NCBI RefSeq assembly: GCF_001529295.1
Contig: NZ_LLWK01000031.1
Span: 1-64,000, forward strand
DNA: 64,000 nt
DNA from: Flavobacterium sp. TAB 87
GTDB lineage: Bacteria > Bacteroidota > Bacteroidia > Flavobacteriales > Flavobacteriaceae
Direction: 5' to 3'
The position numbers and the translations under genes are program-made. The notes below the pieces were generated by a model that ran no database searches, was not told where the DNA came from, and was given only the letters and a program-made list of their open reading frames with translations. Positions 2,924 to 35,310 of the stretch are shown here, one piece after another. Each line of letters starts with the position of its first letter. Position 1 is the first letter of the stretch.

Positions 2924-2937
2924 CGAAGTATACTTCG
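2924..2937. promoter_or_regulatory. perfect 14-bp palindrome in a divergent intergenic region
   Basis: CGAAGTA (2924-2930) is followed directly by its reverse complement TACTTCG (2931-2937). It sits between the divergent genes starting at 2846 (-) and 3108 (+), where an operator would be expected. A regulator cannot be named. Confidence 0.35.
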
Positions 2938-3107: not shown

Positions 3108-4235
3108 ATGGAAACAAATCCTGATGTGGTACTAATTGGTGGTGGCTTAGCTGGACTAACAGCAGCAATACATTTATCCAAAAAAGGATTGAAAGTAACC
3201 CTGATAGAAAAATCAGATTATCCCCGTCATAAAGTCTGTGGCGAGTATATTTCGAATGAAATCTTACCTTATTTACAATGGCTTGATATTGATATCTCAG
3301 AATTGCAACCTACTAATATAAAAAACTTTAGATTTACGTCTAGAAGCGGTCAAGCGGCCAAAGCTCAACTACCCTTGGGCGGTTTTGGTATCAGTCGCTT
3401 TACACTGGATCATTTTTTATATCAAAAGGCGCTTGCTAACGGTTGCAGAGTGCTTAACGAAACAGTTAGCAATGTTACTTTTGGCGCCGATAGGTTTAGC
3501 GTTACAGTTTCGAGCCAAATTATAGAAACAAAATTAGTTTTAGGCGCTTACGGCAAGCGCTCGAACATCGATCAGGTTTTATCTCGTGATTTTATCGCAA
3601 AAAAATCGCCTTGGCTGGCGGTTAAAGCGCACTTTTCGGGCGACTTCCCTGATGATTTGGTAGCGCTTCATAACTTTGATGGTGGCTACTGCGGTATTTC
3701 GAAAGTCGAAAATAATGCGATAAACATCTGTTATCTGGCCGATTATGCCTCTTTCAAAAAATATAAAAACATTGATGATTTTCAACAGAATGTACTTTTC
3801 AAAAACAAAGAATTAAAATCAGTTTTTGAAAACGCAACACTACTCTTTGATAAGCCACTTACCATAAGTCAGATTTGTTTTGAAAAAAAATCACCTGTAG
3901 AAAACCACATTTTAATGATTGGCGATACTGCAGGTCTCATTCATCCTTTATGCGGCAATGGTATGGCTATGGCAATACATAGTTCTAAGATCGCGTCCGA
4001 ATTGGTTTTAGACTTTTATAATAGCACAATTAATTCACGCGAAGAATTGGAAAACAGCTATACCAAATTATGGAAAAAACAGTTTGGGAAACGCTTGTAT
4101 ATGGGCCGAATTTTAGCAAAGATCTTACGTAATAAAGCAATAACTACTTTTCTAATTAGTATTGTAGCTTCTATTCCAAAACTACTTCCATTATTAATTA
4201 AACAAACGCACGGCAAACCAATAGCAATTGATTAA
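3108..4235 (+). CDS. FAD-dependent oxidoreductase, geranylgeranyl-reductase/monooxygenase-like
   Basis: The start chosen is the ATG at 3108. The in-frame TTG nine bases earlier is less likely. The 375-residue protein opens with an FAD Rossmann motif (VVLIGGGLAGLTAA) and the RHKVCGEY segment typical of the geranylgeranyl reductase/UbiH-like superfamily. It carries the second flavin motif ILMIGDTAGLIHPLCGNGMA near residue 270. Family members reduce double bonds in isoprenoid or polyketide lipids or hydroxylate aromatic rings. It is the first gene of the polyketide operon and abuts the methyltransferase with no gap, so it is inferred to tailor the polyketide product by oxidation or reduction. 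It is cytosolic or membrane-peripheral. Confidence 0.88.
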   Translation: METNPDVVLIGGGLAGLTAAIHLSKKGLKVTLIEKSDYPRHKVCGEYISNEILPYLQWLDIDISELQPTNIKNFRFTSRSGQAAKAQLPLGGFGISRFTLDHFLYQKALANGCRVLNETVSNVTFGADRFSVTVSSQIIETKLVLGAYGKRSNIDQVLSRDFIAKKSPWLAVKAHFSGDFPDDLVALHNFDGGYCGISKVENNAINICYLADYASFKKYKNIDDFQQNVLFKNKELKSVFENATLLFDKPLTISQICFEKKSPVENHILMIGDTAGLIHPLCGNGMAMAIHSSKIASELVLDFYNSTINSREELENSYTKLWKKQFGKRLYMGRILAKILRNKAITTFLISIVASIPKLLPLLIKQTHGKPIAID

Positions 4236-4949
4236 ATGAATATAAACACTAAATACAGAACACAAGAAACCGAAATTATGGATGACTTTTCGCTGCAAGG
4301 CGAAGAGTTGCGTGATGCTTTAGATAAAATTGCAGGCATCAACCAATTATTAGGCGGTAACAAACTCACCGTCAATGGCGTTCGACACCTTTTAAAAAAA
4401 GCCGATACTACAAAAACGACAACTATAGCAGATGTAGGTTGCGGCAATGGCGATATGTTACGTGTGCTCGCGAATTACGCTAAAAAAAACAATCTTACTT
4501 TTAAACTCATTGGTATCGACGCCAATGCCTTTACCATAAATTATGCTAAAAAATTATCTACTGAGTATTCCAATATTGAATACAGTTGTGTTGATATATT
4601 TGGCGAGAATTTTAGCACTGTAAAATACGACATTGTTTTGTGTACGCTTACGCTGCACCATTTTACAAACGATCAAATATTAAATATAATTACTACCTTT
4701 AATAAGAATGCTACGATCGGAATTGTGATAAATGATTTGCATCGAAGTAAAGCAGCGTATCGACTTTTCGGAGTGATCTGTACTCTTTTTAGCCTTAACA
4801 AAATGTCTCGCGAAGACGGATTAGTATCGATATTACGAGGGTTTAAAAAACAAGAACTCGTAGATTTTTCTAAAAAATTAAATTTAAAAAACGATACCAT
4901 AAATTGGAAATGGGCTTTTCGATACCAATGGATAATTAGTAAAATATGA
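4236..4949 (+). CDS. class I SAM-dependent methyltransferase
   Basis: This 237-residue protein has the SAM-binding motif I (IADVGCGNGD, residues about 67-76), an acidic residue after strand 2 (LIGIDANAF) and the post-II motif VLCTLTLHHF. It begins immediately after the stop codon of the flavoprotein and overlaps the polyketide synthase by four bases (ATGA), so it is certainly co-transcribed and probably translationally coupled. It is inferred to O- or C-methylate the product of the adjacent type III polyketide synthase. The acceptor is unknown. Confidence 0.9.
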   Translation: MNINTKYRTQETEIMDDFSLQGEELRDALDKIAGINQLLGGNKLTVNGVRHLLKKADTTKTTTIADVGCGNGDMLRVLANYAKKNNLTFKLIGIDANAFTINYAKKLSTEYSNIEYSCVDIFGENFSTVKYDIVLCTLTLHHFTNDQILNIITTFNKNATIGIVINDLHRSKAAYRLFGVICTLFSLNKMSREDGLVSILRGFKKQELVDFSKKLNLKNDTINWKWAFRYQWIISKI

Positions 4950-5998
4950 GTGTAAAAATAGTTACAGTTGCAAAGCAACTACCCCAATATTCGCGCACAA
5001 CGGCCGATATACTTCCATTGCTTAACGTATGGCTGCAGGACCAAGACGAACGATTTATAAAAAAAGTAAAGAAAATTTTTGAAGGAGCTGCGGTAGACAA
5101 ACGCTATTCTATAATGGATCCAGCTGAAGTTTTTACAGCCACTTCTTTTGAAGATAAAAATGACATTTACAGTCGTGAGGTTATTATTTTGGGCGAACAG
5201 GTGTTAGGAAAAGCGCTTGCTAAATCAGGATGGGAACCGCAATCTATTGATTATATCATTACCGTAAGTTGCACGGGCATAATGATTCCCTCGTTAGATG
5301 CTTACCTAATCAATAAAATGAAATTGCGACAAGACATTGTGCGTCTTCCGGTAACTGAAATGGGTTGTGCGGCAGGAATATCCGGAATTATATATGCTAA
5401 AAACTTTTTGAAAGCCAATCCCGGTAAACGTGCAGCAGTAATTGCAGTAGAATCCCCCACGGCAACTTTTCAACTCAATGATTTTTCGATGCCGAATATT
5501 GTTAGCGCGGCCATTTTTGGTGACGGCGCTGCTTGTTGCTTACTGTCTTCACACAATGAGGATCAAGGGCCAGAAATAGTTGACGAACAAATGTATCATT
5601 TTTATGATGCCGAACATATGATGGGATTTAAGCTTACCAATACTGGTTTGCAAATGATTTTAGACATCGAAGTTCCCGACACCATTGCTTCCAATTTTGG
5701 AGATATTATTCATCCATTTCTTCAAAAAAATAATCTAGAAATCGCAGATATTGATCATATGATATTTCACCCTGGAGGAAAAAAAATTGTCACTACTGTA
5801 GAAGCACTTTTTTCGGGTTTAGGGAAAAACATAGACGATACCAAAGAAGTACTGAAGCAATACGGTAATATGTCGAGCGCTACCGTCTTATACGTTTTAG
5901 AACAAATTATAGATAAAAAACCGAAACCAGGAGAAAAAGGACTAATGCTTAGTTTTGGACCGGGATTTTCGGCGCAACGTGTGTTACTACAATGGTAG
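4946..5998 (+). CDS. type III polyketide synthase (chalcone/alkylresorcinol synthase-like)
   Basis: The 350 residues have the full thiolase-fold Cys-His-Asn triad of type III polyketide synthases: Cys141 in TEMGCAAGI, His275 in FHPGGKK and Asn308 in YGNMSSAT. The C-terminal GPG signature is SFGPGFSAQ. The enzyme extends an acyl starter with malonyl-CoA and cyclises it to a pyrone, resorcinol or similar ring. The operon also encodes its own carrier protein, ketosynthase and dehydratase, so the starter is inferred to be an acyl chain built on the dedicated carrier protein. The product cannot be read from sequence. It overlaps the methyltransferase by four bases. Confidence 0.95.
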   Translation: MSVKIVTVAKQLPQYSRTTADILPLLNVWLQDQDERFIKKVKKIFEGAAVDKRYSIMDPAEVFTATSFEDKNDIYSREVIILGEQVLGKALAKSGWEPQSIDYIITVSCTGIMIPSLDAYLINKMKLRQDIVRLPVTEMGCAAGISGIIYAKNFLKANPGKRAAVIAVESPTATFQLNDFSMPNIVSAAIFGDGAACCLLSSHNEDQGPEIVDEQMYHFYDAEHMMGFKLTNTGLQMILDIEVPDTIASNFGDIIHPFLQKNNLEIADIDHMIFHPGGKKIVTTVEALFSGLGKNIDDTKEVLKQYGNMSSATVLYVLEQIIDKKPKPGEKGLMLSFGPGFSAQRVLLQW

Positions 5999-6020
5999 TA
6001 TTCTTAAACTTAATAGTAAA

Positions 6021-6458
6021 ATGAATTTAAACGATATTGTAAAACAACTGCCGTACAGCAAACCCTTTTTATTTGTAGATGAGTTGCTGCATGCTGATGA
6101 AAACGGAGTTACAGGAACCTACACTTTTGATGAAAATTTAGATTTTTACAAAGGTCACTTTAAGGACAATCCGGTAACACCGGGAGTAATTTTAACCGAA
6201 ACAATGGCACAAATCGGAATGGTTTGCTTGGGTATTTATTTACTCCATAATGACCTAAAACAAAATACTGTTATCGCTTTTACTTCAGCCGATGTGCAGT
6301 TTTTAAAACCCGTATATCCGAAAGAAAAAGTTACAGTAACCTCACAAAAGACATTTTTTAGATTTGGAAAATTAAAATGCGATGTAGTGATGAAAAATGA
6401 AGCCGGACAAGAAGTTTGTAAAGGGGTTTTATCAGGAATGATAACCACAAAATTATGA
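6021..6458 (+). CDS. FabZ-like 3-hydroxyacyl-ACP dehydratase (hot-dog fold)
   Basis: The ATG at 6021 gives the 145-residue length expected for FabZ. An in-frame upstream extension would run back into the polyketide synthase gene. The catalytic pair is visible as His46 in YKGHFKDNPVTPGV and Glu60 in ILTETMAQIG, as in FabZ. It dehydrates a 3-hydroxyacyl chain on a carrier protein. In the operon it pairs with the beta-ketoacyl synthase and carrier protein that follow, suggesting a small fatty-acid-type module. Its stop overlaps the start of the ketosynthase (ATGA). No ketoreductase or enoyl reductase is present, so these would be borrowed from primary fatty-acid synthesis. Confidence 0.92.
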   Translation: MNLNDIVKQLPYSKPFLFVDELLHADENGVTGTYTFDENLDFYKGHFKDNPVTPGVILTETMAQIGMVCLGIYLLHNDLKQNTVIAFTSADVQFLKPVYPKEKVTVTSQKTFFRFGKLKCDVVMKNEAGQEVCKGVLSGMITTKL

Positions 6459-7738
6459 GTAAAAGAGTTGTAATTACAGGACTAGGTGTTGCTGCTCCTA
6501 ACGGGGTCGGTGTCTCTGCGTTTACTCATGCCCTAAAAAATGGTATTTCAGGCATCAGACATGATTCGCAATTACAAGAATTACAGTTTTCTTGCCAGAT
6601 TGCTGGTAAACCTGAAATAACTGAGGATATCAAATCAAACTATTTTACAGATTTAGAACTTAGAGGTTTTAACAGCACTGGAATTTTATATGGTGTTATT
6701 GCGGGTATGGAAGCTTGGAAGAACAGTGGTTTGCCTATAGGGCATAATATTGACCCCGATTGGGAAAGCGGAACTATCTTTGGCTCTGGAACTTCGGGAA
6801 TTGATAAATTTCGCGAAAGCATTTATAAAATAGACGATTTGCAAACGCGACGATTGGGCAGTACTGTCGTTGCACAAACTATGAACAGCGGAATTAGTGC
6901 CTATCTCGGCGGTAAACTAGGATTGGGCAATCAAGTAACTACCAATTCATCGGCTTGTGCAACGGGCACCGAAGCTATAATGATGGCTTATGATCGCATA
7001 CAATCAGGTCAAGCCCAACGAATATTAGCTGGAAGTACTGGCGATAGCGGACCGTATATTTGGGCTGGTTTTGATGCGTTGCGAGTTTGCAGTTCCAAAT
7101 ACAATGATCATCCGGAACAAGGCTCTCGCCCAATGAGTACTACTGCGGCAGGTTTTGTTCCTGGAAGCGGAGCTGGTGCATTAGTTATAGAGGATTTGGA
7201 TAGCGCCTTAAAACGGGGTGCTACAATTTATGCTGAAATACTTGGTGGTCATGTAAATTCTGGCGGACAACGTGGCAGCGGAAGTATGACTGCCCCTAAT
7301 AGTGTTGCCGTTCAGCGTTGCATTACTCAGGCACTACAAAGTTCTGGTATCGAAGCAGATGCTATTGATGCAATAAACGGACATCTAACTGCTACAACAA
7401 AAGACGGGCTGGAGATTGAGAATTGGACCAAAGCACTAAACAGAAGCGGTCTTGACTTTCCTTATATAAACTCCTTAAAAAGCATGACGGGCCACTGTCT
7501 TAGTGCTGCAGGAAGTATAGAAAGTGTGGCAACTGTATTGCAATTGCATGAAGGATTTTTATTTGGCAACTTAAATTGCGATGATCTTCATCCAGAAATT
7601 ACTGCTTTAATAGATGCATCTCGAGTACCAATAAAGACTAAGAACATCGATTTAAACATTATTGCCAAAGCAAGCTTTGGTTTTGGTGATGTAAATGCGT
7701 GTATTATATTTAAAAAATTTGAAACTGAACTAAGATGA
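6455..7738 (+). CDS. beta-ketoacyl-ACP synthase (KAS II/FabF-like)
   Basis: This 427-residue condensing enzyme has Cys168 in NSSACATGTEA, His310 in DAINGHLTATTKDG and His347 in SMTGHCLSAAG, the complete Cys-His-His triad of FabF-type synthases. The usual NAHGT sequence around the first His is changed to NGHLT, as in synthases of secondary pathways, so a special substrate is likely. It overlaps the preceding dehydratase and the following carrier protein by four bases each. It is inferred to elongate an acyl chain on the dedicated carrier protein before transfer to the type III synthase, or to make a tail joined to its product. Confidence 0.93.
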   Translation: MSKRVVITGLGVAAPNGVGVSAFTHALKNGISGIRHDSQLQELQFSCQIAGKPEITEDIKSNYFTDLELRGFNSTGILYGVIAGMEAWKNSGLPIGHNIDPDWESGTIFGSGTSGIDKFRESIYKIDDLQTRRLGSTVVAQTMNSGISAYLGGKLGLGNQVTTNSSACATGTEAIMMAYDRIQSGQAQRILAGSTGDSGPYIWAGFDALRVCSSKYNDHPEQGSRPMSTTAAGFVPGSGAGALVIEDLDSALKRGATIYAEILGGHVNSGGQRGSGSMTAPNSVAVQRCITQALQSSGIEADAIDAINGHLTATTKDGLEIENWTKALNRSGLDFPYINSLKSMTGHCLSAAGSIESVATVLQLHEGFLFGNLNCDDLHPEITALIDASRVPIKTKNIDLNIIAKASFGFGDVNACIIFKKFETELR

Positions 7739-7989
7739 ATAAAGAAGACCTAATTGCTAAATTAAAAGTTATTATAAAGCCCTACACTACCAATATAGAA
7801 GCTTATGATAACCTAACGGAAGACACCGATTTTATAAACGATCTCAACATTAATTCAGCAAACCTTGTTGATATTATATTGGATATTGAGGAAGCTTTTG
7901 ATGTCGTTATAGATAATACCGATATGGAACAAATGCTAGATGTAAAACGATCTGTAGCAATTATTGAAACTAAATTGGCGGCAAAGTGA
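7735..7989 (+). CDS. acyl carrier protein
   Basis: The 84-residue four-helix carrier protein has the phosphopantetheine site Ser41 in DLNINSANLVDI. This is a variant of the usual DSL motif (NSA instead of DSL) that suggests a dedicated rather than housekeeping carrier. It lies between the ketosynthase and the phosphopantetheinyl transferase with four-base overlaps on both sides. It carries intermediates of the operon's pathway after activation by the next gene product. Confidence 0.92.
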   Translation: MNKEDLIAKLKVIIKPYTTNIEAYDNLTEDTDFINDLNINSANLVDIILDIEEAFDVVIDNTDMEQMLDVKRSVAIIETKLAAK

Positions 7990-8480
7990 TCGGAAACGAT
8001 ATTGTAGATATTGTACAAGCACGGAAAGAAAGCAACTGGCAACGCAAAGGTTTTTTACAAAAAATATTTACTGCAAATGAACAGTTGCTCATTGCACAAA
8101 GTACCACGCCTGAAATCACGGTTTGGCTGCTTTGGAGTATGAAAGAAGCAGCATATAAAATTTACAACCGACAAACAACGATTCGAGCATTTATTCCAAC
8201 AAAGCTAGAGTGCTGTCTCCTTTCAGATAATGTTACTACTAAAACGGGGAGAGTACTTTGTTTCGGCACTATGTATTACACCAAATCGACGGTCATGAAT
8301 GATGTGATTCATACTATTGCAGTCAGTTATTTAAAAGATTTAAATAATATAATTGAAATTGAAAACAAAAACATCATCAAAGATAAATATGGTATTCCTT
8401 ATTTATCCACCGCTATTCTTCAGGATGTTTCTATTAGTCATCATGGTAAGTTTGAAAAAGTGGTTGTAATTTGCAACTAG
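7986..8480 (+). CDS. 4'-phosphopantetheinyl transferase superfamily protein
   Basis: The GTG start at 7986 overlaps the carrier-protein stop (GTGA). The 164 residues show the two PPTase signatures, GNDIVDI at residues 3-9 (metal-binding Asp) and WSMKEAAYKI near residue 50 (WxxKEAxxK). It is expected to transfer phosphopantetheine from CoA to Ser41 of the carrier protein encoded just upstream. As the last gene of the operon it makes the pathway independent of the housekeeping AcpS. No clear terminator follows. Confidence 0.92.
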   Translation: MIGNDIVDIVQARKESNWQRKGFLQKIFTANEQLLIAQSTTPEITVWLLWSMKEAAYKIYNRQTTIRAFIPTKLECCLLSDNVTTKTGRVLCFGTMYYTKSTVMNDVIHTIAVSYLKDLNNIIEIENKNIIKDKYGIPYLSTAILQDVSISHHGKFEKVVVICN

Positions 8481-9078: not shown

Positions 9079-9086
9079 TATTTTTG
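9079..9086 (+). promoter_or_regulatory. -7 promoter box TATTTTTG
   Basis: A TAnnTTTG match lies 42 bases upstream of the ATG at 9129. It argues against using the in-frame TTG at 9084 as a start, because that codon lies inside the promoter box. Confidence 0.45.
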
Positions 9087-9128
9087 CGCTTGTTCAATCG
9101 GATCAATTCATTCTTAAATTTAAATAAA

Positions 9129-9488
9129 ATGAAATCAATATATAAATTATTGATGGCAATAACACTATTGCTATCTGTTACTTTAACTAACGCACAAAGC
9201 AAAAATAATGTTACTGAAAGTGTAAAAATCAATGGCAACTGCGGCATGTGCAAAAAGACCATCGAAACGGCTGCGAACAATAAAACAGCAAATTTAACTT
9301 GGGACGTAGACTCGAAAATCGCTACGGTAACTTACGATTCTAAAAAAACAACTGTAGATGAAATTTTAAAACGAGTAGCTAATGTTGGGTATGATAATGA
9401 AAAATTTACAGCGCCAACTACTGCCTATAACAAATTGCCAGGATGTTGTCAATACGATAGAGAGCCTGCCACAGAAACGGATAAATAA
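9129..9488 (+). CDS. exported heavy-metal-associated (HMA) domain protein
   Basis: Starting at the ATG at 9129 gives 119 residues: a signal peptide ending TNAQ near residue 23, then one HMA (ferredoxin-like) domain. Its metal site is NGNCGMCKKTIE, so the usual GMTCxxC loop is CGMC here, and the C-terminal tail adds a CC pair (PGCCQYD). It is a likely periplasmic carrier of Cu(I) or another soft ion. It is followed after 34 bases by the thioredoxin-like protein and belongs to the 8.6-11.3 kb unit. A second, different HMA protein lies at 10010. Confidence 0.85.
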   Translation: MKSIYKLLMAITLLLSVTLTNAQSKNNVTESVKINGNCGMCKKTIETAANNKTANLTWDVDSKIATVTYDSKKTTVDEILKRVANVGYDNEKFTAPTTAYNKLPGCCQYDREPATETDK

Positions 9489-9522
9489 TTCCGTTCTTTC
9501 TTTCATTTAAAAGTAACACTTT

Positions 9523-10008
9523 ATGTTTTCAATAAAAAATAGTTTTGCGGTATTGGTTCTCCTATTTAGCTTTTCATTGGCAAATGCACAATTAAAGATA
9601 GGAGACCAATTACCCGATCTTCAATTACAAAATGACAAAAATAGTACGGTCAAACTAAATTCCTCTACAGGGAAAGTGGTCTTGGTAGATTTTTGGGCTT
9701 CTTGGTGTGGTCCTTGCCGATTAGCAAATAAAAATTTAGTAAAAATCTACGACAACTATAAATCTGAAAAATTTGAAATTGTAGGTATATCGATCGATAC
9801 TGATCAAGCCAAATGGCTAAAAGCCATTGAAAAAGACAAACTAAAAAACACGCAATTAATTGACGATAATGGATTTGACTCACAATCTGCAGTACTCTTT
9901 GGCGTAGATGCCTTGCCTGCAGCGTACCTTTTTGATGCATCAGGAACACTGATAGCTGTCAATCCAACCGAAGTTGAAATCATTGCACAAATCAAAAAAA
10001 ATAATTAA
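9523..10008 (+). CDS. exported TlpA/thioredoxin-like protein
   Basis: The 161 residues have a signal peptide (ends LANAQ, about residue 22) and a TlpA-like thioredoxin domain with the active site WASWCGPC near residues 59-66. The LKIGDQLPDLQL entry strand and the cis-Pro region DALPAAYL are present. It would act in the periplasm as a disulfide reductase or isomerase. In this operon it may keep the Cys residues of the HMA and Cys-rich proteins reduced for metal binding. The next gene starts one base after its stop. Confidence 0.88.
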   Translation: MFSIKNSFAVLVLLFSFSLANAQLKIGDQLPDLQLQNDKNSTVKLNSSTGKVVLVDFWASWCGPCRLANKNLVKIYDNYKSEKFEIVGISIDTDQAKWLKAIEKDKLKNTQLIDDNGFDSQSAVLFGVDALPAAYLFDASGTLIAVNPTEVEIIAQIKKNN

Positions 10009-10009
10009 T

Positions 10010-10537
10010 ATGAAATTCTCAAATATAAAATTCTTAACACTAACGCTCTTAGTTGTCTTAACAAGCTTCCAATCGTATGCACAAATCAATAAAGCAGAGA
10101 TCATTGCGACAGGACTAACCTGCTCGATGTGCTCTAACGCAATAAACAAGCAGTTAAAATCAATAACTGAAGTTGATAGTGTAGGCACCGATTTAAACAC
10201 AAATACCTTTACTGTCTACTTTAAAAAAAATACAGTATTGCAGCCTAAAGTATTAAAAAACGCAGTCGAAAAAGCAGGCTTTTTTGTGGGTTCAATGGTA
10301 GTAACTATGAAAACAGATCCTTCTAAAATTCAAAATAATTCGGTAAAAACGGATGCTGGAACTTTTATCTTTATCGATGCTAAAAATCCTATTACGTCTA
10401 CGGAAGCTTCGTACCAAGTTTTAGACAAAGGTTTTGTAACTCAAAAAGAATATAAAAAATTAGCTAAAACCTATGCTAAAAAAGATACATACAATGCCGA
10501 AAACGAAAATGATTACCATTTAAAATCTGTTAAATAA
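10010..10537 (+). CDS. exported HMA-domain protein with C-terminal extension
   Basis: The ATG at 10010 gives 175 residues: a signal peptide (ends SYAQ, about residue 25), then a ferredoxin-like HMA domain with the CxxC motif TGLTCSMCSNAI near residue 40. An approximately 80-residue C-terminal extension with no recognised domain follows and contains no further Cys. It is likely a periplasmic metal-binding or transfer protein. The start follows the thioredoxin stop by one base, and its stop overlaps the next ATG by one base (TAATG), so the three genes are tightly coupled. Confidence 0.82.
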   Translation: MKFSNIKFLTLTLLVVLTSFQSYAQINKAEIIATGLTCSMCSNAINKQLKSITEVDSVGTDLNTNTFTVYFKKNTVLQPKVLKNAVEKAGFFVGSMVVTMKTDPSKIQNNSVKTDAGTFIFIDAKNPITSTEASYQVLDKGFVTQKEYKKLAKTYAKKDTYNAENENDYHLKSVK

Positions 10538-11343
10538 TGAGGTATTTATCAGTCGTTTTTATACTGTTTATTTCACTGCAAATAGACGCACAAGAGCTGT
10601 TTGTAATGACAGAACCTGCCAGTAATGCTCCCGCAGGTTCTATTGGAGCGCGTCTTGGTCAGTCTTTATTGAAAAATAAAATAAATGGTGGTAGTACTTA
10701 CAGTGTAGCGCCAGAAGTTACTTGGGGAATCAACAAAAATGTAATGGTTCGCGCTTCTTCCTATTTTGATGATATGAACGATGGGTTTGATTACAGAGGA
10801 GCTGGTTTGTATGCCAAATACCGTTTTTTCTCTGTAGACGATCTGCAGAGTCATTTCAGAATGGCAGCTTACGGTCGCTATAGTTGGAACAACGCTGAAA
10901 TTAAGCAGGAAGCCATCGATATAAACGGAATGAATAGCGGTTACGAAGCTGGATTAGTAGCAACTCAATTGATTAAAAAAGTGGCACTTAGTTCTTCTGT
11001 GAGTTATAGTCAAGCTTTTAACAATGGAGATTACTCTTTTCCAAACAACCACGGCAAGCGAGCTGTGAACTATACTTTGTCGGCTGGACGTTTAATGTAT
11101 CCTAAAAAATACACCAGCTTTAAGCAAACCAACATTAACACGATGTTAGAATTTGTTGGGCAGACGATTACAGAAAATGGTCAATCGTATTTGGATGTCG
11201 TGCCTTCTGTTCAATTCATCATCAACAGTCAGGCTAGAATTGACTTGGCGTACAAAAAAGAATTGTACAGCTCGATGAGCCGCATCAATACTGACGGTGT
11301 TTTCTTAAAATTAGAATATACATTTTTTAACGTTACCCAATAA
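10537..11343 (+). CDS. predicted outer-membrane beta-barrel protein
   Basis: The 268 residues have a signal peptide (ends IDAQ, residue about 18) followed by alternating amphipathic strands rich in Tyr and Ser and a C-terminal aromatic strand (FLKLEYTFFNVTQ), the layout of a small outer-membrane barrel. No named family is certain. It is the last gene of the metal unit, overlapping the HMA gene by one base, and may be an outer-membrane channel or sensor for the metal. A strong two-way terminator follows. Confidence 0.68.
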   Translation: MRYLSVVFILFISLQIDAQELFVMTEPASNAPAGSIGARLGQSLLKNKINGGSTYSVAPEVTWGINKNVMVRASSYFDDMNDGFDYRGAGLYAKYRFFSVDDLQSHFRMAAYGRYSWNNAEIKQEAIDINGMNSGYEAGLVATQLIKKVALSSSVSYSQAFNNGDYSFPNNHGKRAVNYTLSAGRLMYPKKYTSFKQTNINTMLEFVGQTITENGQSYLDVVPSVQFIINSQARIDLAYKKELYSSMSRINTDGVFLKLEYTFFNVTQ

Positions 11344-11422
11344 GATACGCAGATTAGTTACGTTCAATTAAAAAATAGGTTCGAGAATGGTTTGACTAAC
11401 TATCAGTAATTTCTAAAACAAA

Positions 11423-11454
11423 AAAAGCTGTCCAATTCGTTTTGGACAGCTTTT
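11423..11454. terminator. bidirectional rho-independent terminator
   Basis: AAAAGCTGTCCA (11423-11434) pairs with TGGACAGCTTTT (11443-11454) in a 12-bp stem with A and T runs on both sides. It separates the convergent metal units ending at 11343 (+) and 11495 (-). Confidence 0.92.
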
Positions 11455-11494
11455 CTATTTTAAACTCACAATTAAATATTTTTAAAATTGAGTT

Positions 11495-11815
11495 TTATTT
11501 TAAGTAGGCTTCGCAAGCTGCTTCGCATGACCTGCACGCTGCTGCGCAATCTTTACAATGTTGGTGGTCGTGTTGTTCGCATTCCTCTGCACATTTTTTA
11601 CAGATTTCAAGACAAACTTGCACTAGTGATTTTACATCTTCGTAATTTCCTGCCAGTAGTTTTGCTGTTGTAGTGCAAATTTCTGCACAAGCAATGTCTG
11701 TTTTAATGCAATTGACCATCATTTTTACGTGATCTTCATCCAGACAAGCATCTGCACAATACTTACAATGCATCGCACAATTATTTAAAGCCTCAATCAA
11801 TTTTGTATTTTTCAT
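11495..11815 (-). CDS. four-helix-bundle copper-storage protein (Csp/DUF326)
   Basis: The 106 residues contain 16 Cys, mostly in CxxxC spacing along predicted helices (for example CAMHCKYCADAC at residues 13-24, and eight more between about residues 68 and 101), plus a His-rich turn EQHDHQHCKDC. This is the pattern of Csp-type four-helix bundles that bind many Cu(I) ions inside the helix tube. There is no signal peptide, so it is the cytosolic Csp3-like form. It is the last gene downstream of the efflux-pump cluster and converges on the HMA unit. Cu(I) storage or buffering is inferred. Confidence 0.88.
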   Translation of the reverse strand: MKNTKLIEALNNCAMHCKYCADACLDEDHVKMMVNCIKTDIACAEICTTTAKLLAGNYEDVKSLVQVCLEICKKCAEECEQHDHQHCKDCAAACRSCEAACEAYLK

Positions 11816-12008
11816 ATCTAACCTATTTAAAATTAATAAAATTTGAAACCTTCCTAATTAGAAAAGGCTTCTTAATAATTTTTAAGGTATTGACTTTACG
11901 TTTAGTAAACTGTTCTAAAAAATATTATTTTTAACTCATTTGCTATTTACTTCAATATGCTTTCGCAAAATTTACGCTGGTTAAAGCAATGATTTCGATT
12001 TTATTATT

Positions 12009-12629
12009 TTATTCAGCAAGCATTTTTTCGATCTGAAGATGAAAGTTTTTAGCATCATAATTAGCAAAGCCAGTATGGCGCATTCGCACTATTCCATTTT
12101 TATCTAAAATGACCGAAGTCGGTAAAGAACCCGAATAAATTTCTTTAGGTACAGCGGATGTCGCTTGAGCAATTGGCAGCGAATAGTTTTTCTTATCATA
12201 AAATTGTTGTCCGGTCTTAATGTCATCGTCCATGTTGATCATCAAAAACACCATCTTATCATTGTTTTTAAACTTAGAATGGAATTTTTCTATCGAAGGA
12301 AATTCGGCAATGCAAGGCGGACACCAAGAAGCCCAAAAGTTAATAAAAACTACTTTTCCCTTTAAGTCGGCTGTGCTTTTTATGTTTCCTTCATAATCCT
12401 CGAAATCAAAATGATTTTTAAGTTCGTTATCAGTCGAATTAACCGAAGATACTTCAGCGTTAAAAATTCCAGTAAATAGCAATTGTTTAATGAGAAATGA
12501 TTTTGCATCTGGGCTGAACAACAGAATTCCGAAAATAAATACCATCAAAATTGTAGGTATTTTTTTCTTGACTTTGTCCCACGTTGATAGTTCAATAGCT
12601 TGTTTCTCGTTTGTATTTTTTTCAATCAT
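12009..12629 (-). CDS. membrane-anchored TlpA/ResA-like thioredoxin
   Basis: The 206 residues have one N-terminal membrane anchor (about residues 26-45) and a periplasmic thioredoxin domain with FWASWCPPCIAEFPSIEKF (active-site CPPC near residue 105) and the cis-Pro loop SGSLPTSVI. It would be a thiol-disulfide reductase facing the periplasm. It follows the pump gene at 12782 after 152 bases. A parallel TlpA gene lies in the opposing metal unit, so both metal units carry their own redox protein. CPPC is the sequence usual in TlpA/ResA-type reductases. Confidence 0.88.
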   Translation of the reverse strand: MIEKNTNEKQAIELSTWDKVKKKIPTILMVFIFGILLFSPDAKSFLIKQLLFTGIFNAEVSSVNSTDNELKNHFDFEDYEGNIKSTADLKGKVVFINFWASWCPPCIAEFPSIEKFHSKFKNNDKMVFLMINMDDDIKTGQQFYDKKNYSLPIAQATSAVPKEIYSGSLPTSVILDKNGIVRMRHTGFANYDAKNFHLQIEKMLAE

Positions 12630-12781
12630 TATAATTCTTTTTTAAGTCTGTTTTTTTTTGAATAAAATTATTAATTATAACATTTGTCAGGTTGAACGCA
12701 GTCAAAACTCTTTTTATAAGTAACCTACACTCTCGACTACGCTCGATTTGACAACAATAAAACCTTATTTTCAAAAATTAA

Positions 12782-13879
12782 TTAGTAAATCTTTCCTTCT
12801 TTCATTTCTTCTGAAGGCTTCAAAAGTATCAGATCTTGATCTGAAAAATCACCAAATACTTCCGATAGAGTATCCAATTTAATGCCTTCGGTGATTGGAA
12901 CTTTTTTAATCTCATTATTGTTAAAGGTAAGCACAAAATTACCGCGTTGCGTATTTAAAATACTTCCGTTTTGAACCCAATAGGAGGGTGCTTTGCGTTG
13001 CAATTTCAAATTTACTTGGGCGTAATCGCCACCTTGTAATTCTCCTGAAGGGTTGTCGACATCAAACTCTATGGTCAAAGAACGATCGGCTTTGTTTAAG
13101 AATCCTGAACTGCGCGATAGTTTCGTTTTAAATGTTTTTCCGGGTTGCGAACTGATTGTGAATGTAGCCGGCATTCCGTCAGTGATTGACGCTGCATGTT
13201 TTTCGGGTAGCGAAACGGTCAAACGCAAACGGTTTCCTTGTGCAATCATAAACAATGGCACTCCTGAACCCGATCCAGCAAGCGCTCCAACCGATACATT
13301 TCTAGCTGTAATAATGCCGTCAAAAGGTGCTGTAATTCTCAAGTATTTTTGCAATTGTGCAGATCCTGCTGTTCCAGCACTTGCACTTCTGTACGCTGCT
13401 TGCGCACTTTCCATAGCGCTTTTAGATCGTTCTACTTCAATCGCTGCAACAGCTCCTGCAGTTTTCGAAGCCTCTAACATTCGGTCGTGCGCTTGCTTGG
13501 CATACAAATAATCGCTTTTAATTTTTTGTTCAGAAGATTGATCGGAAATGTACTTTTGATTCATTTCCGGTGCAACAAGCTCGGCCAACAACTGGCCTTT
13601 TTTTACTTTTTGGCCACGTTCTACAAAAAGCTTTTGTACAAATCCACTCACTCTAGCGTAAACCGCTACTTCCTCATACGGTTGCAATTCTGCCGGCAAG
13701 GATAGTTCGTATTCAGGCTTTATAAATTGGATAACTTCTGTTTTATGACTTTGTAATTTTGCCGTTGGCGCTTTCTCAACTTCCGCTTTAACTTCGTTCT
13801 TATCCGAACAAGCGGCAAGAAAGAGCAAAGTAAAGACTGCAATTGCGATCATTTTTATTTTTTGATTTATAGTGTCCAT
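12782..13879 (-). CDS. RND efflux periplasmic adaptor (membrane fusion protein), lipoprotein
   Basis: The 365 residues start with a lipoprotein signal (LLFLAAC, Cys24). Then come a barrel-sandwich strand with ARVSGFVQKLFVERGQKVKKGQLLAELV, a helical hairpin rich in Ala, Glu and Gln, a second lipoyl half (ITAPFDGIITARNVSVG) and beta-barrel parts. It bridges the RND pump and the outer-membrane channel, whose genes lie directly upstream in transcription order (17 bases between stop and start). The helical hairpin is short. The metal units around it suggest metal efflux, but drug efflux cannot be excluded. Confidence 0.93.
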   Translation of the reverse strand: MDTINQKIKMIAIAVFTLLFLAACSDKNEVKAEVEKAPTAKLQSHKTEVIQFIKPEYELSLPAELQPYEEVAVYARVSGFVQKLFVERGQKVKKGQLLAELVAPEMNQKYISDQSSEQKIKSDYLYAKQAHDRMLEASKTAGAVAAIEVERSKSAMESAQAAYRSASAGTAGSAQLQKYLRITAPFDGIITARNVSVGALAGSGSGVPLFMIAQGNRLRLTVSLPEKHAASITDGMPATFTISSQPGKTFKTKLSRSSGFLNKADRSLTIEFDVDNPSGELQGGDYAQVNLKLQRKAPSYWVQNGSILNTQRGNFVLTFNNNEIKKVPITEGIKLDTLSEVFGDFSDQDLILLKPSEEMKEGKIY

Positions 13880-13895
13880 TTTTTAGGTATTAAAG

Positions 13896-16800
13896 TTATT
13901 TGATAAAATATTGACTTTCCTCATCATCTGGATCAAGGGAAGGATTCACAACTGCCGTTTTTGACAACATGGATGCAAAGAAATGCGGTACCAATAATAA
14001 TATGGTAGCAGTAGACGCTATTAAACCACCAATCACGGCGCGAGCCAAAGGTGCCACTTGTTCGGCGCCATCACCAATTCCGATTGCCATTGGTAACATT
14101 CCTGCTAACATTGCTGCAGCTGTCATTAATATTGGTCTAAGTCTAGATGATGCTGCTAAACGCGCTGCATTTGCAGGTTTCAGCAACAAGTCTTTTCGAT
14201 AATATTCGGCTTGATTGACCAGCAAAACAGCATTAGAAACCGAAACACCAATCGACATAATGATTCCCATGTACGATTGTAAATTGAGTGTACTTTGCGT
14301 TAGAAATAAAATCAGCAAGCTTCCTGCAATAACGGCGGGAACCACCGATAAAATAATAAGCGGCACTTTATACGATTGATAATAAGCGGCCAACATTAAA
14401 AATATAGCTATAATTGCCACGCCTAAACCAGCTAATAAATTGCTCAATGTTTCGTCTAAAAGTTTAATAGTTCCTTCGGTCCAGACAGTAACGCCTCGCG
14501 GTGGCTCACCCACATCTTTAATTGCTTTTTTTACCGCACCAGAAGCAGTTCCCAAATCTTTGCCGTGCAAATTCGCAATTATGGTTACATAACGATTGGC
14601 TCCTTTTCGGTTTACTTGGGCGGGAGAACTTACTCTTTTTATGGTGGCCACATCCTCTAAAACAGGTCTCAAACTACCTTTCTTTAAAGGCAATGCTCTG
14701 AGATTTTGTTCTGATGACATAATGGCTTCTGGAATTTGAACCTGCACCTGAAAAACAAGTCCCGATTTTGGGTCAATCCAAAGATTTTTATCGGTGAAAC
14801 GAGTCGATGACGTGGCCGTCACTAAGCTTTTGGTAATTTCTTGAACTGTTAAGCCAAATTGCCCAGCGAGATCACGATTGATTTCAATTTCTAGCGTAGG
14901 ATAAGCAACAGGTTCTGCAATGCGAACGTCTCGCAAGTAGGGAATTGCTTTTAAATTGGCTTCAATTTTCTTCGCAAAAGCAACAGCACCTTTTAATTGT
15001 CCAGCGCCCACTTTTACTTCAATCGGAGTCATAGCGCCTTGACCCATAATTTTCTCAGTAAGTTCCATCGGTTCAAAATTAATCGCCACAGCTGGATGAC
15101 TTTTTTGAAGTTTTATTCTAATTTCTTCTTTTAAATCTTGAATTGATCCAGAATACAAGTCTTGGTTTACCGATACTTGCAAAATGGCCTCGTGAGAAGC
15201 ATTGGTAAAGGTAAATATTGGATTGATGGGTGAAGTTGCAGGTTGCATTCCAACAAAAGCCGAAGATATAGCCACTCCATTTTCTGGAAGTTGTGTTTTA
15301 ATCTCTTCTAAAATTTCTTTTACAATTCGCTCTGTTTTTTCCAACCTACTTCCTGTTGGCGCTTGAATGCGGAGTTGGAAATCACCACTATTGGATACCG
15401 GCATTACATCTGTTCCTACATTGGGCAGCAACAATGCAATTACACCTACAGCTACAAAAATATAAAGTATAAAAAGCGACATCGATCTTGTGGACCACTT
15501 GCGCATTCGATATGAATAATTGACACGAAATTTATCAAAAAAAGCACGCTTGCGAGGCGTATTTGCCACTTCATTTTTTTTCATTTTCATCATCCAGTTG
15601 GCCAGAATTGGCACAAAGGTTTGAGAAGCAATAAAAGAAGCCACCATCGCAAAAGCTACTGCCATCGATAAAGGCATGAACATGTCTTTTGGAATACCCG
15701 TCATAATAAACGCAGGCGTTAAAACTGCTAGAATACAAAGTAAAATAAGGAGTTTGGGAATCGAAATTTCAACCAAAGCGTCACTAATAGCACGCTGTTT
15801 GGGTTTTCCCATTTCCATGTGTTGGTGGATATTTTCAATGGTGACGGTGGCTTCATCTACTAAGATCCCGATCGAAAGTGCCAAACCGCTCAACGTCATA
15901 ATATTGATTGTTTCTCCTAAAAAATAAAGCGCAGCAACCGCACTTAAAATCGCAATGGGAATGGTGAGCACCACAATTAGTGCGCCTCTAGAATCTCCCA
16001 AAAACAATAAAATAACCAATCCTGTAAATACTGCTCCCAATAATCCTTCGTGGATTAAATTAGATAGCGAACTTTCGATGTACTTGGATTGGTCAAATTC
16101 GTATTTTATATTCACATCTTCAGGAAGTTGATCCTTCAGCATTGGCAAAGCTTCTTTCAAATTTTTAACAGCTTCTAGTGTCGAAGCATCCGCTTTTTTT
16201 ATAATGGGAAGATAAACAGACCGTTTGCCGTTGATGAGTGCATAACCAACCGTTTGATCTGCGCCATCTTGCACATTGGCTACATCTCTGATATAGATGG
16301 TGCGCGAATCGTTCGTTTTAATGGGTGTGTTTAAAAATTCTTCGGGACTTTTTGCAATAGAATTAATAGGTGCCATTAAGTTTTCATCGCCAATGCGAAT
16401 GTTTCCTGCTGGCGACGGTAAACTGTTTTTAGTGATTGCAATAGTAATTTCTTCGGCACTCAAACCGTTGGCTTGCATGGCTTGTGGATCAATATTAACA
16501 ATAATAGAACGTGCGTTTCCGCCAAATGGAGCTGGCGCAGTAATGCCAGGAATGGCCACAAACATTGGGCGTATTTTGGTAAGTACCAAAGTCTGAATTT
16601 CATTAATAGAGCGCTCGTCACTTTCAAAAACCAACTGTCCAACAGGCAAGGAACTTCCGTCAAAACGAACTACCATAGGCGGTACGGCACCTGGCGGGAG
16701 GAATCCCATTGCTCTAGACACTGAAGTCGAAACCTCTCCAGCAGCTTGGGCCATATTAGTTCCGGGATAAAAAGTCAATTTCATTAAGGTTAGACCTTGA

Positions 16801-17054
16801 ATACTTTTGAAGTCCATGCTTTTTACTCCGCCAACAAAAAGCAGTACTTTTTGAAATTCATTGGCCATAAAACCGTCCATATAAGCGGGTGATAGTCCGC
16901 CGTACGGCATGGCGATATACATGGCTGGAAGTTCAACTTCGGGAAATATATCTACGTTTATTTTTTTTATTGCTGCAAAGGACAAGAAGACAATGGCAGC
17001 CACAGCCACAATAACCGATATGGGTCTTCTTAATGCAAATTGTATTAAGTTCAT
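13896..17054 (-). CDS. RND-type efflux pump, inner-membrane permease
   Basis: At 1052 residues it has the normal length of AcrB/CusA-type pumps: an N-terminal transmembrane helix (RRPISVIVAVAAIVFLS), two large periplasmic loops, and the TM4 charge motif GILVDEATVTIENIHQHME around residue 400. A conserved MLAGMLPMAIG segment lies near the C-terminal helices. The pump uses proton flow to export substrates from the periplasm or membrane. Genes order TolC-RND-adaptor, all leftward with 10-17 base gaps, form one operon. The substrate is uncertain. The flanking copper-storage and HMA genes favour a metal cation. Confidence 0.95.
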   Translation of the reverse strand: MNLIQFALRRPISVIVAVAAIVFLSFAAIKKINVDIFPEVELPAMYIAMPYGGLSPAYMDGFMANEFQKVLLFVGGVKSMDFKSIQGLTLMKLTFYPGTNMAQAAGEVSTSVSRAMGFLPPGAVPPMVVRFDGSSLPVGQLVFESDERSINEIQTLVLTKIRPMFVAIPGITAPAPFGGNARSIIVNIDPQAMQANGLSAEEITIAITKNSLPSPAGNIRIGDENLMAPINSIAKSPEEFLNTPIKTNDSRTIYIRDVANVQDGADQTVGYALINGKRSVYLPIIKKADASTLEAVKNLKEALPMLKDQLPEDVNIKYEFDQSKYIESSLSNLIHEGLLGAVFTGLVILLFLGDSRGALIVVLTIPIAILSAVAALYFLGETINIMTLSGLALSIGILVDEATVTIENIHQHMEMGKPKQRAISDALVEISIPKLLILLCILAVLTPAFIMTGIPKDMFMPLSMAVAFAMVASFIASQTFVPILANWMMKMKKNEVANTPRKRAFFDKFRVNYSYRMRKWSTRSMSLFILYIFVAVGVIALLLPNVGTDVMPVSNSGDFQLRIQAPTGSRLEKTERIVKEILEEIKTQLPENGVAISSAFVGMQPATSPINPIFTFTNASHEAILQVSVNQDLYSGSIQDLKEEIRIKLQKSHPAVAINFEPMELTEKIMGQGAMTPIEVKVGAGQLKGAVAFAKKIEANLKAIPYLRDVRIAEPVAYPTLEIEINRDLAGQFGLTVQEITKSLVTATSSTRFTDKNLWIDPKSGLVFQVQVQIPEAIMSSEQNLRALPLKKGSLRPVLEDVATIKRVSSPAQVNRKGANRYVTIIANLHGKDLGTASGAVKKAIKDVGEPPRGVTVWTEGTIKLLDETLSNLLAGLGVAIIAIFLMLAAYYQSYKVPLIILSVVPAVIAGSLLILFLTQSTLNLQSYMGIIMSIGVSVSNAVLLVNQAEYYRKDLLLKPANAARLAASSRLRPILMTAAAMLAGMLPMAIGIGDGAEQVAPLARAVIGGLIASTATILLLVPHFFASMLSKTAVVNPSLDPDDEESQYFIK

Positions 17055-30713: not shown

Positions 30714-33700
30714 TTAAAATCTAATTTGACCTCCTACTGTAATAGTTTTAGGTGACGGGTAAGCTCCTAAGTCAACACCTGCATTAGTGTCTCCTGTTAC
30801 TGTACTTGCTTCTGGATCAAATCCTTTGTATTTTGTAAATGTTAAATAATTTTGTGCACTTACTGTTAATTTAATGTCTGCAAATTTTAATAAGTCTTTA
30901 GAAATATCGTAAGATAAACTAATGTTCTTCATACGTACATAACTACCATCTTGTAAAAACTGAGTAGATTCAATCCAACTCTTACTTGTATTACCAGGAT
31001 TTGCCCAAGTTGAACTTGTGTTTGTTGGAGTCCAGTAATTTGCAGCATCGGCTAGCGTAATAAATTTATTATCACTTGTAGGAATTGCAGCAGCAGCATA
31101 CGTTGCGTTAAATACTTTATTTCCAAAAGATCCTTGAAAGAAAACGTTCAATTCGAATTTTTTATACGTAAAAGTGTTATTAAATCCTACTTGAATTTTA
31201 GGAGTTGCAGATCCAGAAACTACTCTGTCTTCAAAACCGATAGAACCATTTCCACTTACATCTTTATATTTTGCATCTCCAGCTTTGTGAGTTCCTTCGT
31301 CTGTTTGGTATACTCCTTCCCATGGAATTAAATAAAACGCACCCATTGATTCTCCAACTTTAACAACCTGAATATTAGTAGTAATTAAACCACCACCAAT
31401 GTGCGGAATGTTGATATAATCGTCTTTACCTAAACTCTGTACTTTATTTTTGTTAGAGGCAAAATTAAAACCAGAAGACCATTGAAAATTATCTGTTTTG
31501 ATAGGCGTACCGTCAATTACAAGTTCAAATCCTTTGTTACTTACCACTCCAACGTTTTTGAAGAAAGAACCTCCACCGTCATAATTATTTACAACTGTTT
31601 TTAACAAAAGATCTGATGTTGTTTTATCGTAGTAGTCTGCACTAATGTTTAATCTATTGTTTAAAAATGATACATCAATTCCAAAATCTTTTTGCTCAGT
31701 AGTTTCCCATTTTAAATCTGGTGTAGATGGACTACCCAAACTGTATGCTGGAGATAAAACACCCGTTCCATAAGAATAGGACAAGTTATTTAACAATCCT
31801 AAAGTGCTGTAAGGATTAATTGCTTGGCTACCTGTAATTCCCCAACCCGCTCTTAATTTAAGATTAGAAACAACGTCTAGATCTTGAATAAAAGACTCAT
31901 TTGAAAGTTTCCAAGCAGCACCTACAGAAGGAAACGTACTCCATTTGTTATCTCCTTGAAATTTAGAAGAACCGTCACGTCTTAAACTTGCTGTCAATAA
32001 AAATCTATCATCATATCCATAAGAAACACGACCTAAATAAGACAACAAAGAGTAATCAGAGTAATAAGAAGAAATCGCTTGAGAAGCATTTAATCCTAAA
32101 TTATAATAGCCGTTAGTTAAAGACGCTAATCCAGAACCCGATGCTTTAAAACCGCTGTTTGTATTTGACAAAGACTCCAATACGGCTACAGCATTAACGT
32201 TATGCTTGTCAAAAGTTTTATTAAATTCTAATATACTACTGTTTTGGAACGTGTAATTTTCAGAATACGATTGACCAGAACCGTAAGAAGGTTGCAACCA
32301 TTGGTTTTGCAAATACGCTGCTTTTTCATTTAGCATTTCTAAACCTGAGTTATTAGTAAATGAAAGCCAATCTGTAATTGTGTATTTAATTTTACCATTA
32401 AAAGATCCAATATTTCTAAAAAAGTCTTTGTTGGTTTCTTTACTAGTCATGTACGGATTGTTCCAAATTGGTGAAACTCCTGTCACATTGTAAATTCCTT
32501 CCGAATCATAAACCAATTCAGTTGGTGCCCAAGTAACAGCTCCCATAACTGGATTTCCTTTGTAACCGTAGTCATCATTATTATGACCTTCAATTCTACT
32601 AGCAAATACATCTACTCCCAGACTTAACTTACTGCTAATTTTAATATCAACATTAGACCTACCTCCAAACTTCTTTTGACCTGTATTGATTAAAAGTCCG
32701 CCTTGATCAATATGAAATCCAGAAACAAAATATTTAACACTTTCTGAACCACCAGATACAGACAATTGGTTGCTGGTTGTAATAGAGTTTGCAAAAATTA
32801 AATCTTGCCAATCGGTACCTTTACCAGCAAATGAATCTGGATTAGCAAATGCTCCAGGCGCAGAAAGGTTAGCAATTTTAGCATACGTTACTGCGTCCAT
32901 TACATCATACTTTTCCATCGGAGAGTTAAAACTGGTAAAGTTGTTAAACTCTATTTTAGCCACGCCCGATTTTCCTTTTTTAGTAGTTATGATAATTACA
33001 CCATTTGCTCCTCTTGAACCGTAAATTGCAGTAGCAGAAGCATCTTTTAAAACTTCCATCGATTCGATATCGTTTACATTGATTTGGTTGAAACCAATAC
33101 TTCCTAAAGCAATTCCATCAACTACATACAATGGAGAATTTGATCCGTTGATCGAGTTGGCCCCTCTAATTCTAATTTTCACATCTCCACCTGGAGCTCC
33201 AGAGTTTGCGCTAACAGAAACTCCAGCTACTCTTCCTTGTATTGCCGCAGCACCGTCTAATACTGGCTGATTTTTAAATGCTTTTGCAGATAAAGTAGAA
33301 ACCGAGCCTGTTAAGTCTTTACGCTTCACAGTACCGTATCCTACCACAACTACTTCGTTCATTTGCTGAGCTTGCGATCTTAAAACGATAGTCAGCTTGT
33401 TGTTGTCCTTAATTTGAACTTCTTGATCAGTAAACCCCAAATAAGAAAAAATAAATACGTCTCCTTTTTTAGCATCAATGGTAAAAGTACCATCCATATC
33501 ACTACTTGCTCCCATTTGAGCTCCCTTTTTAACGATATTCACTCCAGGAAGCGGCAAGCCTTGTTCGTCAACTACTTTTCCTGTAATTTGATCAAATGCA
33601 ATAGCACTTGCTTTTACCAATTTTAAATTCGTATTGATTTCGATACTTGCCACATTTCTAGTAGCAAGGACATCGTATTTTTCTAAAAATTTAACTTCGT

Positions 33701-33809: not shown

Positions 33810-33875
33810 TATTTAGTTTGTTTGTTAGTTCATAACTTTTACAATGCGTTACTATCACTTGACAATAACTTTTTT

Positions 33876-33908
33876 ATCAGGAAGAATTTAAAAAAAAATC
33901 TTCCTGAT
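33876..33908. promoter_or_regulatory. stem-loop in the susC leader
   Basis: ATCAGGAAGA (33876-33885) pairs perfectly with TCTTCCTGAT (33899-33908). In the rightward direction it is followed by CTTTTT, which is terminator-like. In the susC mRNA (leftward) it is a leader hairpin followed by A residues. It could end an antisense RNA or shape the leader. Confidence 0.45.
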
Positions 33909-34021
33909 CTTTTTCGATTAATTTGTTAAGTCGGTTTTCCCTTTTTCATATCTATTGTTTTGATTAGTATTTGGCTTTTAGTTTTAGTTAATTTTTTATT
34001 AAAATATTTTAATTTAGATTT

Positions 34022-34067
34022 CAAAAGTAGAACGGATTTTTAAAAAAGCATATCACTACCAACCAGT
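34022..34067 (-). promoter_or_regulatory. regulon element plus -7 box, susC promoter (copy c)
   Basis: Read leftward, ACTGGTTGGTAGTGATATG (34067-34049) is followed by 19 bases and the -7 box TACTTTTG (34029-34022). It is the most divergent of the five copies but keeps the exact spacing. Confidence 0.75.
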
Positions 34068-34652: not shown

Positions 34653-34671
34653 ACTGGTAGGTACTGATATG
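34653..34671 (+). promoter_or_regulatory. orphan copy of the regulon element (copy d)
   Basis: ACTGGTAGGTACTGATATG matches copy a at 17 of 19 positions but faces right, away from susC. No TAnnTTTG box lies at the expected distance (34691-34698 reads CGGATAAA), and no gene starts for about 690 bases. Confidence 0.65.
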
Positions 34672-35296: not shown

Positions 35297-35310
35297 CACT
35301 TCATTTCTAC

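Follow-up and report, generated by a model that had tools for sequence, protein, structure and literature searches.

A type III polyketide synthase operon with its own acyl carrier protein cassette in Flavobacterium sp. TAB 87 and other Bacteroidota

The stretch of DNA analysed here, 64,000 nucleotides from Flavobacterium sp. TAB 87 (hereafter the window), carries an operon of seven co-directional genes, all intact and open at 3108-8480 on the plus strand in a scan of open reading frames (ORFs). In order, they encode a flavoprotein, a methyltransferase, a type III polyketide synthase (PKS), a FabZ-like dehydratase, a ketosynthase (KAS), an acyl carrier protein (ACP) and a phosphopantetheinyl transferase (PPTase). 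We propose that a dedicated module of type II fatty acid synthase enzymes probably hands an acyl-ACP to the PKS, and that the resulting alkylresorcinol or alkylpyrone is methylated and hydroxylated to give one phenolic-type lipid. In this scheme, the PPTase would arm the ACP, and the KAS and FabZ, joined in many relatives by a FabL-like enoyl reductase, would work with a ketoreductase of primary metabolism to build or lengthen an acyl chain on the operon's ACP. The chain would then be passed to the active-site cysteine of the PKS, which would add malonyl units and cyclise the product, while the methyltransferase and flavoprotein would modify the ring to yield a methoxy-hydroquinone or quinone-type membrane lipid. 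We infer the acyl-ACP transfer, the chain length, the cyclisation mode, the tailoring steps and any role in the membrane or in respiration. The original prediction, made from the DNA letters, had already proposed that an ACP module feeds the PKS. That interpretation was right in outline and is partly supported, since the module is a dedicated and co-inherited set, but it was incomplete, as the cassette (FabL where present, FabZ, KAS, ACP and PPTase) is not exclusive to type III PKSs. Newly added to it are an enoyl reductase in many relatives, the placing of the KAS in a group of its own and the finding of the cassette next to DarB.

Conservation and distribution of the operon

Pfam assigned all seven proteins, each with a best match above the curated cut-off, although the ACP passes it barely (21.8 vs 20.8 bits), which bears out the seven-gene set of the original prediction. 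The mostly four-base overlaps described there occur at 4 of the 6 junctions (methyltransferase/PKS, FabZ/KAS, KAS/ACP and ACP/PPTase), while 0 bases lie at the flavoprotein/methyltransferase junction and a 22-base gap separates the PKS from FabZ. Gene order was followed across 120 loci, of which 40 were hand-picked from the matches and 80 were the best of at least 567 named loci, giving a bias to Flavobacterium. A close PKS is present in 112 of these loci, and the order flavoprotein, methyltransferase, PKS, FabL where present, FabZ, KAS and ACP is kept in 106 of the 112, without requiring the PPTase. The PPTase is present in 97 of the 106 order-conserving loci and was not detected in the other 9, and hence is not essential to the operon design. 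Among the named carriers are F. johnsoniae (strain CI04, L119), F. flevense, Myroides guanonis, Kaistella and Sphingobacterium. Of the six deviating loci, three (L082, L165 and L168) are truncated where their contigs end, no methyltransferase ORF was seen in the scan of L133 and L173, and L077 has neither an ACP nor a PPTase behind its KAS. In L165 (CALQCV020000159.1), the PKS, 80% identical, lies on a contig of 5.3 kb whose label, a Candidatus Nitrotoga metagenome-assembled genome, is probably a binning error. The remaining 8 of the 120 loci have a distant PKS, seven of them without the operon neighbours and one (L083) with a PKS, methyltransferase and flavoprotein only.

Co-inheritance of the PKS and the cassette was assessed in one of two samples of 395 genomes each, drawn from the phylum and from the class. 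In the phylum draw, a PKS match at 1e-40 occurs in 98 genomes, 33 at 67% identity or above and 65 at 37% or below, and a KAS match at 1e-60 occurs in 38, 33 at 60% identity or above and five at 48-54%. The PKSs of at least 67% and the KASs of at least 60% identity fall in the identical 33 genomes. None of 39 genomes from other families of the order held a PKS at 61% identity or above, and no relative was found in the viral contigs searched. The shared 33 genomes, the single PKS group in the tree and the separate housekeeping acpP and fabF support the ACP, KAS and FabZ set as dedicated, non-housekeeping and co-inherited with the close PKS. Relative to the operon of L064, with which the window's proteins are 59-91% identical, ratios of nonsynonymous to synonymous substitution (dN/dS) are 0.104 for the flavoprotein, 0.070 for the methyltransferase, 0.040 for the PKS, 0.080 for FabZ, 0.039 for the KAS and 0.141 for the PPTase, where the ACP value was not computable and dS, at 1.2-2.7, is near saturation. 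These six genes are under purifying selection, and because the order is conserved and dN/dS spans 0.039-0.141, a chance grouping of genes is excluded.

The acyl carrier protein cassette

The cassette opens with the FabZ-like 3-hydroxyacyl-ACP dehydratase (6021..6458, plus strand; Pfam, NCBIfam and alignment), in which His46 and Glu60 are conserved in 111/111 relatives. It is followed by the KAS II-like ketosynthase of the GHLT/FGFGD group (6455..7738, plus strand; NCBIfam, alignment, tree and motifs), with Cys168 present in 110/110 relatives and His310, Lys342 and His347 in 109/110, the one row being gapped. The ACP (7735..7989, plus strand; Pfam, alignment and motifs) has Ser41 of its NSA phosphopantetheine site conserved in 108/108 relatives, and an AcpS-type 4'-phosphopantetheinyl transferase with a GTG start (7986..8480, plus strand; Pfam) closes the operon. 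The catalytic residues that the original prediction had named are thus in place throughout, as they are in the PKS. Its use of NSA and NGHLT to mark dedicated proteins also holds, as both behave as lineage marks: NSAN is found in 107/108 ACP relatives, and GHLT, like FGFGD, in 109/110 KAS relatives. Housekeeping acpP and fabF lie side by side elsewhere in the window genome, on contig C38, and this genome has two further PPTases besides that of the operon.

The KAS II-like label is sound for the catalytic triad and the fold family, but the protein scores 269 bits against the NCBIfam FabF model, below its cut-off of 493.75. In a tree of 23 KAS rows, the enzymes linked to type III PKSs, to DarA/DarB (DAR) loci and to glycosyltransferase (GT2) loci come together with support 100/99, apart from the window genome's FabF and two other KAS proteins, these three being the only outside rows of the tree and all having long branches. 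GHLT is present in all 20 cassette KAS rows of this tree, and FGFGDVN in the PKS- and DAR-linked rows; the latter pattern has no match in the three GT2-linked rows. This separation bears on a different reading, in which the PKS draws acyl-CoA from primary metabolism or beta-oxidation, the cassette having become a general supplementary fatty acid synthase. Such a reading would suit the long-held view that CoA-bound substrates are the sole starters of type III PKSs (PMC8086630), and also the order-conserving operons in which the PPTase was undetected. Against it stand the shared 33 genomes of close PKS and close KAS, the FabF score below cut-off and the grouping of the KAS apart from the genome's FabF, and we consider it the least likely of the alternatives.

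In many relatives, the operon has an eighth gene, a short-chain dehydrogenase/reductase (SDR) gene between the PKS and FabZ, at the place where the window has the 22-base gap without a gene (5999..6020, plus strand). The best NCBIfam match of three SDR copies is the FabL enoyl-ACP reductase, at 148, 150 and 141 bits, where the next model reaches no more than 115.3; all three fall below the cut-off of 328. This FabL-like gene lies inside the operon in 16 of the 112 close-PKS loci; two further SDR matches (L105 and L127) fall elsewhere than between PKS and FabZ. A further set of 13 type III PKS loci has the gene in 12, L258 being the exception. The motif Y-x6-K, which we take to be a mark of enoyl reductases, was recovered by a pattern search in 14 of the 16 copies inside the operon; in L093 the pattern matched at a different spot although its sequence contains the motif, and L096 was not resolved. 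No close FabL copy was found elsewhere in the window genome, the best of 11 matches being 27% identical. As the gene is present in relatives' operons and has no close counterpart in the window genome, an eight-gene set was probably reduced to the seven genes of the window. The original prediction that no ketoreductase is encoded is correct for the operon, as the ORF and Pfam scan of the gene string detected none and none was seen in relatives' operons, but many relatives have a more complete reductive set than it had supposed.

The type III polyketide synthase

The PKS (4946..5998, plus strand; Pfam, alignment, tree and fold) matches the N and C domains of the Pfam Chalcone/stilbene synthase families at 71.3 and 73.2 bits against a cut-off of 27, and its triad of Cys141, His275 and Asn308 is conserved in the alignment of 112/112 relatives. 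In the PKS tree, all 25 sampled cassette-linked enzymes are divided from 13 cassette-less ones across one branch with support 100/99, a split whose depth is unsure as several cassette-less rows sit on long branches. The nearest solved structure by sequence is PKS11, with CylI next in a single-sequence search, while a fold search with the AlphaFold2 model suggests CylI as the nearest (8yst, E 2.6e-30) and PKS11 close behind (4jap, 1.3e-29). CylI is reported to accept ACP-bound chains (PMC8086630), and ArsB and ArsC are reported to take ACP-bound chains from the ACP domain of ArsA (PMC6274091). These reports count against the premise of the original prediction that type III PKSs normally work without a carrier protein. 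The site of ArsB Trp281 and ArsC Gly284 (PMC6274091) was not used to call a resorcinol or pyrone product, as the mapping is unsafe and ArsC lies outside the 60 structures listed.

Tailoring enzymes

The first two genes of the operon encode a FAD-dependent oxidoreductase of the geranylgeranyl-reductase/UbiH/halogenase superfamily, a putative ring hydroxylase (3108..4235, plus strand; Pfam, NCBIfam, motifs and fold), and a class I S-adenosylmethionine-dependent methyltransferase (4236..4949, plus strand; Pfam, NCBIfam and homology to methyltransferases adjoining cassette-less type III PKSs). Both are homologous to the enzymes beside the cassette-less type III PKSs of Psychrobacter, Paracoccus and L083; in the cassette-less set of Deinococcus, only the PKS and methyltransferase were matched, and the FAD gene is there by annotation. 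The flavoprotein has GxGxxG in 110/112 relatives, and its model (pLDDT 84.6) finds as its nearest folds the halogenases PltA and ChlB4, a geranylgeranyl-reductase-like protein and Mpy16, with 3-hydroxybenzoate 6-hydroxylase lower among the matches. WxWxIP, which we take to be the halogenase motif, occurs in 0/112 relatives. Despite the PltA-like fold, a halogenase is therefore unlikely, and because that motif is missing, the flavoprotein is best read as a likely ring hydroxylase. Three-gene sets of PKS, methyltransferase and oxidoreductase have been linked with alkylresorcinols and polyketide quinones (PMC10896814, PMC9927152), with the role of the oxidoreductase left open in PMC10896814. At L254:5111-6537 and L249:11596-12318, the operon holds or is directly followed by an additional methyltransferase gene related to the first.

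The set of L083, whose genome belongs to the window's genus, indicates that these three genes can occur alone. Together with the finding that the cassette also occurs with no PKS in sight, this would favour a product of two moieties: a head group that the PKS and the two tailoring enzymes form from acyl-CoA, and a second acyl chain from the cassette, attached to it afterwards in the manner of flexirubin. No acyltransferase or ligase that could join the two parts was detected in the Pfam scan of the operon proteins, however, and L083's PKS falls outside the group formed by those of cassette-bearing operons, as expected if the latter are adapted to the cassette, so that we regard a two-part product as improbable. 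Membership of the flexirubin family was itself rejected, as the window genome has no DarB match at 1e-70.

The cassette beside other partners

The five KAS homologues at 48-54% identity occur in settings other than the type III PKS operon. In L200 and L201, FabL-FabZ-KAS-ACP-PPTase genes are divergent from those for DarB and DarG, which in L200 score 634.8 bits (cut-off 550) and 197.8 bits (cut-off 170) against their NCBIfam models. L201 resembles L200 at 75% identity for DarB, 64% for DarA and 70% for DarG, where DarA has no NCBIfam match and is presumed from its position. DarA and DarB together build a dialkylresorcinol from fatty acid intermediates (PMC3992019). In the class draw, 33 KAS copies were found at 1e-100 in 32 of the 395 genomes, and 26 of them adjoin the type III PKS operon.

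FabZ-KAS-ACP genes also lie in L202:7325-11689, L203:8797-13946 and L204:7606-11856 with a GT2-type glycosyltransferase, assigned by NCBIfam for L203 and by likeness for L202 and L204, and with a protein that we take from its sequence to be GNAT-like. L203 also has FabL and a serine-palmitoyltransferase-like gene nearby, and the PPTase was not detected in any of the three; these sets are possibly a separate lipid locus. In L245 and L248, KAS-ACP-PPTase genes (with FabZ as well in L245) stand beside dioxygenase-, glycosyltransferase- and asparagine-synthase-like genes, the last neighbour names being our assumption. Type III PKSs are not the sole partners of the cassette. It may be, at somewhat less than even odds, that Bacteroidota have a portable acyl-ACP cassette (FabL-FabZ-GHLT ketosynthase-ACP-PPTase) that is plugged into an adapted type III PKS group, into DarB and into two or more additional sets of partners. 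Each pairing would then make its own kind of membrane lipid from a chain not available from primary metabolism; the enoyl reductase would have been lost from the majority of the sampled genomes of the window's genus, possibly leaving an unsaturated chain. The marks GHLT in the KAS and NSAN in the ACP of PKS- and DAR-linked forms allow related lipid loci to be found and compared.

Several observations weigh against the proposed scheme. Seven of the 33 KAS copies of the class draw (L200, L242, L243, L245, L246, L248 and L256) have no type III PKS in sight, where L243, L248 and L256 are on short contigs (5.9, 9.1 and 5.4 kb) that may hide partners. L077 keeps the PKS and KAS but has no ACP or PPTase after the KAS, and the operon is patchy within the genus, a PKS of at least 61% identity being present in only 30 of the 60 genomes sampled. 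The KAS has NGHLT and FGFGDVN where FabF has HGT and, at the gating loop, FGFGG, and because FGFGD replaces FGFGG and GHLT replaces HGT, its chemistry could differ from that of FabF. The tailoring enzymes are only 26-36% identical to those of the cassette-less sets compared. The PKS model itself is of moderate confidence (pLDDT 73.8), and in a profile search the naphthalene synthase 1u0m ranks above CylI. Lastly, DpgA comes out as the top NCBIfam model for the PKS, at 172.5 bits (below the cut-off of 425) and far above KAS III, the second best at 78.2 bits.

DpgA is named for making 3,5-dihydroxyphenylacetyl-CoA, and its place as the best model keeps alive a reverse order of events, in which a small aromatic acid from the PKS is loaded on the ACP, extended by the KAS and FabZ to an aryl polyene-like chain, and then methylated and oxidised. 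The lack of an enoyl reductase in the window operon would suit a polyene, yet the reductase belongs to the set in many relatives, and the DpgA match falls short of its cut-off. Furthermore, the predicted fold of the PKS is nearest to the alkyl-chain enzymes CylI and PKS11, the latter also first by sequence; the cassette also adjoins DarB; and the Pfam scan detected no ligase for an aromatic acid among the operon proteins. We judge this order unlikely, if the foremost of the alternatives, and continue to favour transfer of an acyl chain from the operon's ACP to the PKS.

Genomic surroundings

The operon lies on contig C31 of a 3.8 Mb genome with 99.98% completeness. A scan for promoters and terminators gave counts close to those of shuffled sequence; a perfect palindrome at window positions 2924-2937, approximately 170 bases upstream of the operon, is a possible operator or part of a terminator. 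Downstream, at 9084-17054, is a metal-related block of what we take from their sequences to be small HMA-like proteins and TlpA-like thioredoxins, with a large gene, presumably for RND efflux, on the minus strand. Contig C34 carries, at approximately 32000-46000, a megasynthase cluster with frames of 2233, 1324 and 1346 amino acids, carrier domains and its own PPTase.

Comparison with known systems

Type III PKS clusters make up 9% of predicted clusters in Flavobacteriaceae (PMC7440613). The titles and abstract openings listed in literature searches gave no account of, or product for, the present gene set, which is not a claim that it is absent from print. Aryl polyene clusters have their own ketoreductase and aromatic-acid ligase, neither of which is in the window operon. 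FabF has the Cys-His-His triad and fold family in common with the window KAS, which differs in its sub-threshold score, its GHLT and FGFGDVN signatures and its place apart from the genome's own FabF. The DarA/DarB loci L200 and L201 share homologues of FabL-FabZ-KAS-ACP-PPTase, with a KAS that also bears GHLT and FGFGDVN, but their ring is made by DarB and DarA instead of a type III PKS.

The operons pkqABC, hidABC and one whose genes are presumably named srsABC are three-gene sets without ACP, KAS, FabZ, FabL or PPTase, and the window order is flavoprotein-methyltransferase-PKS. As in the window, they place a type III PKS with a methyltransferase and an oxidoreductase (PMC9927152, PMC10896814). 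The ars system of Azotobacter has a dedicated fatty acid synthase (ArsA) with type III PKSs (ArsB and ArsC); transfer from ACP domain to PKS cysteine is reported there (PMC6274091), whereas the window offers gene linkage only. ArsA is also a type I protein, while the window's parts are discrete type II proteins with the methyltransferase and flavoprotein in the same operon. In the cylindrocyclophane pathway, an ACP-bound chain passes from CylH to CylI, an alkylresorcinol-forming type III PKS (PMC8086630) and the nearest match to the predicted fold of the window PKS, but this cyanobacterial system has a type I PKS donor, a halogenase and a dimerising enzyme, unlike the window operon. By analogy with these systems, the operon would combine an Ars- and Cyl-like coupling of carrier protein to type III PKS with a tailoring like that of Pkq, Hid and Srs.

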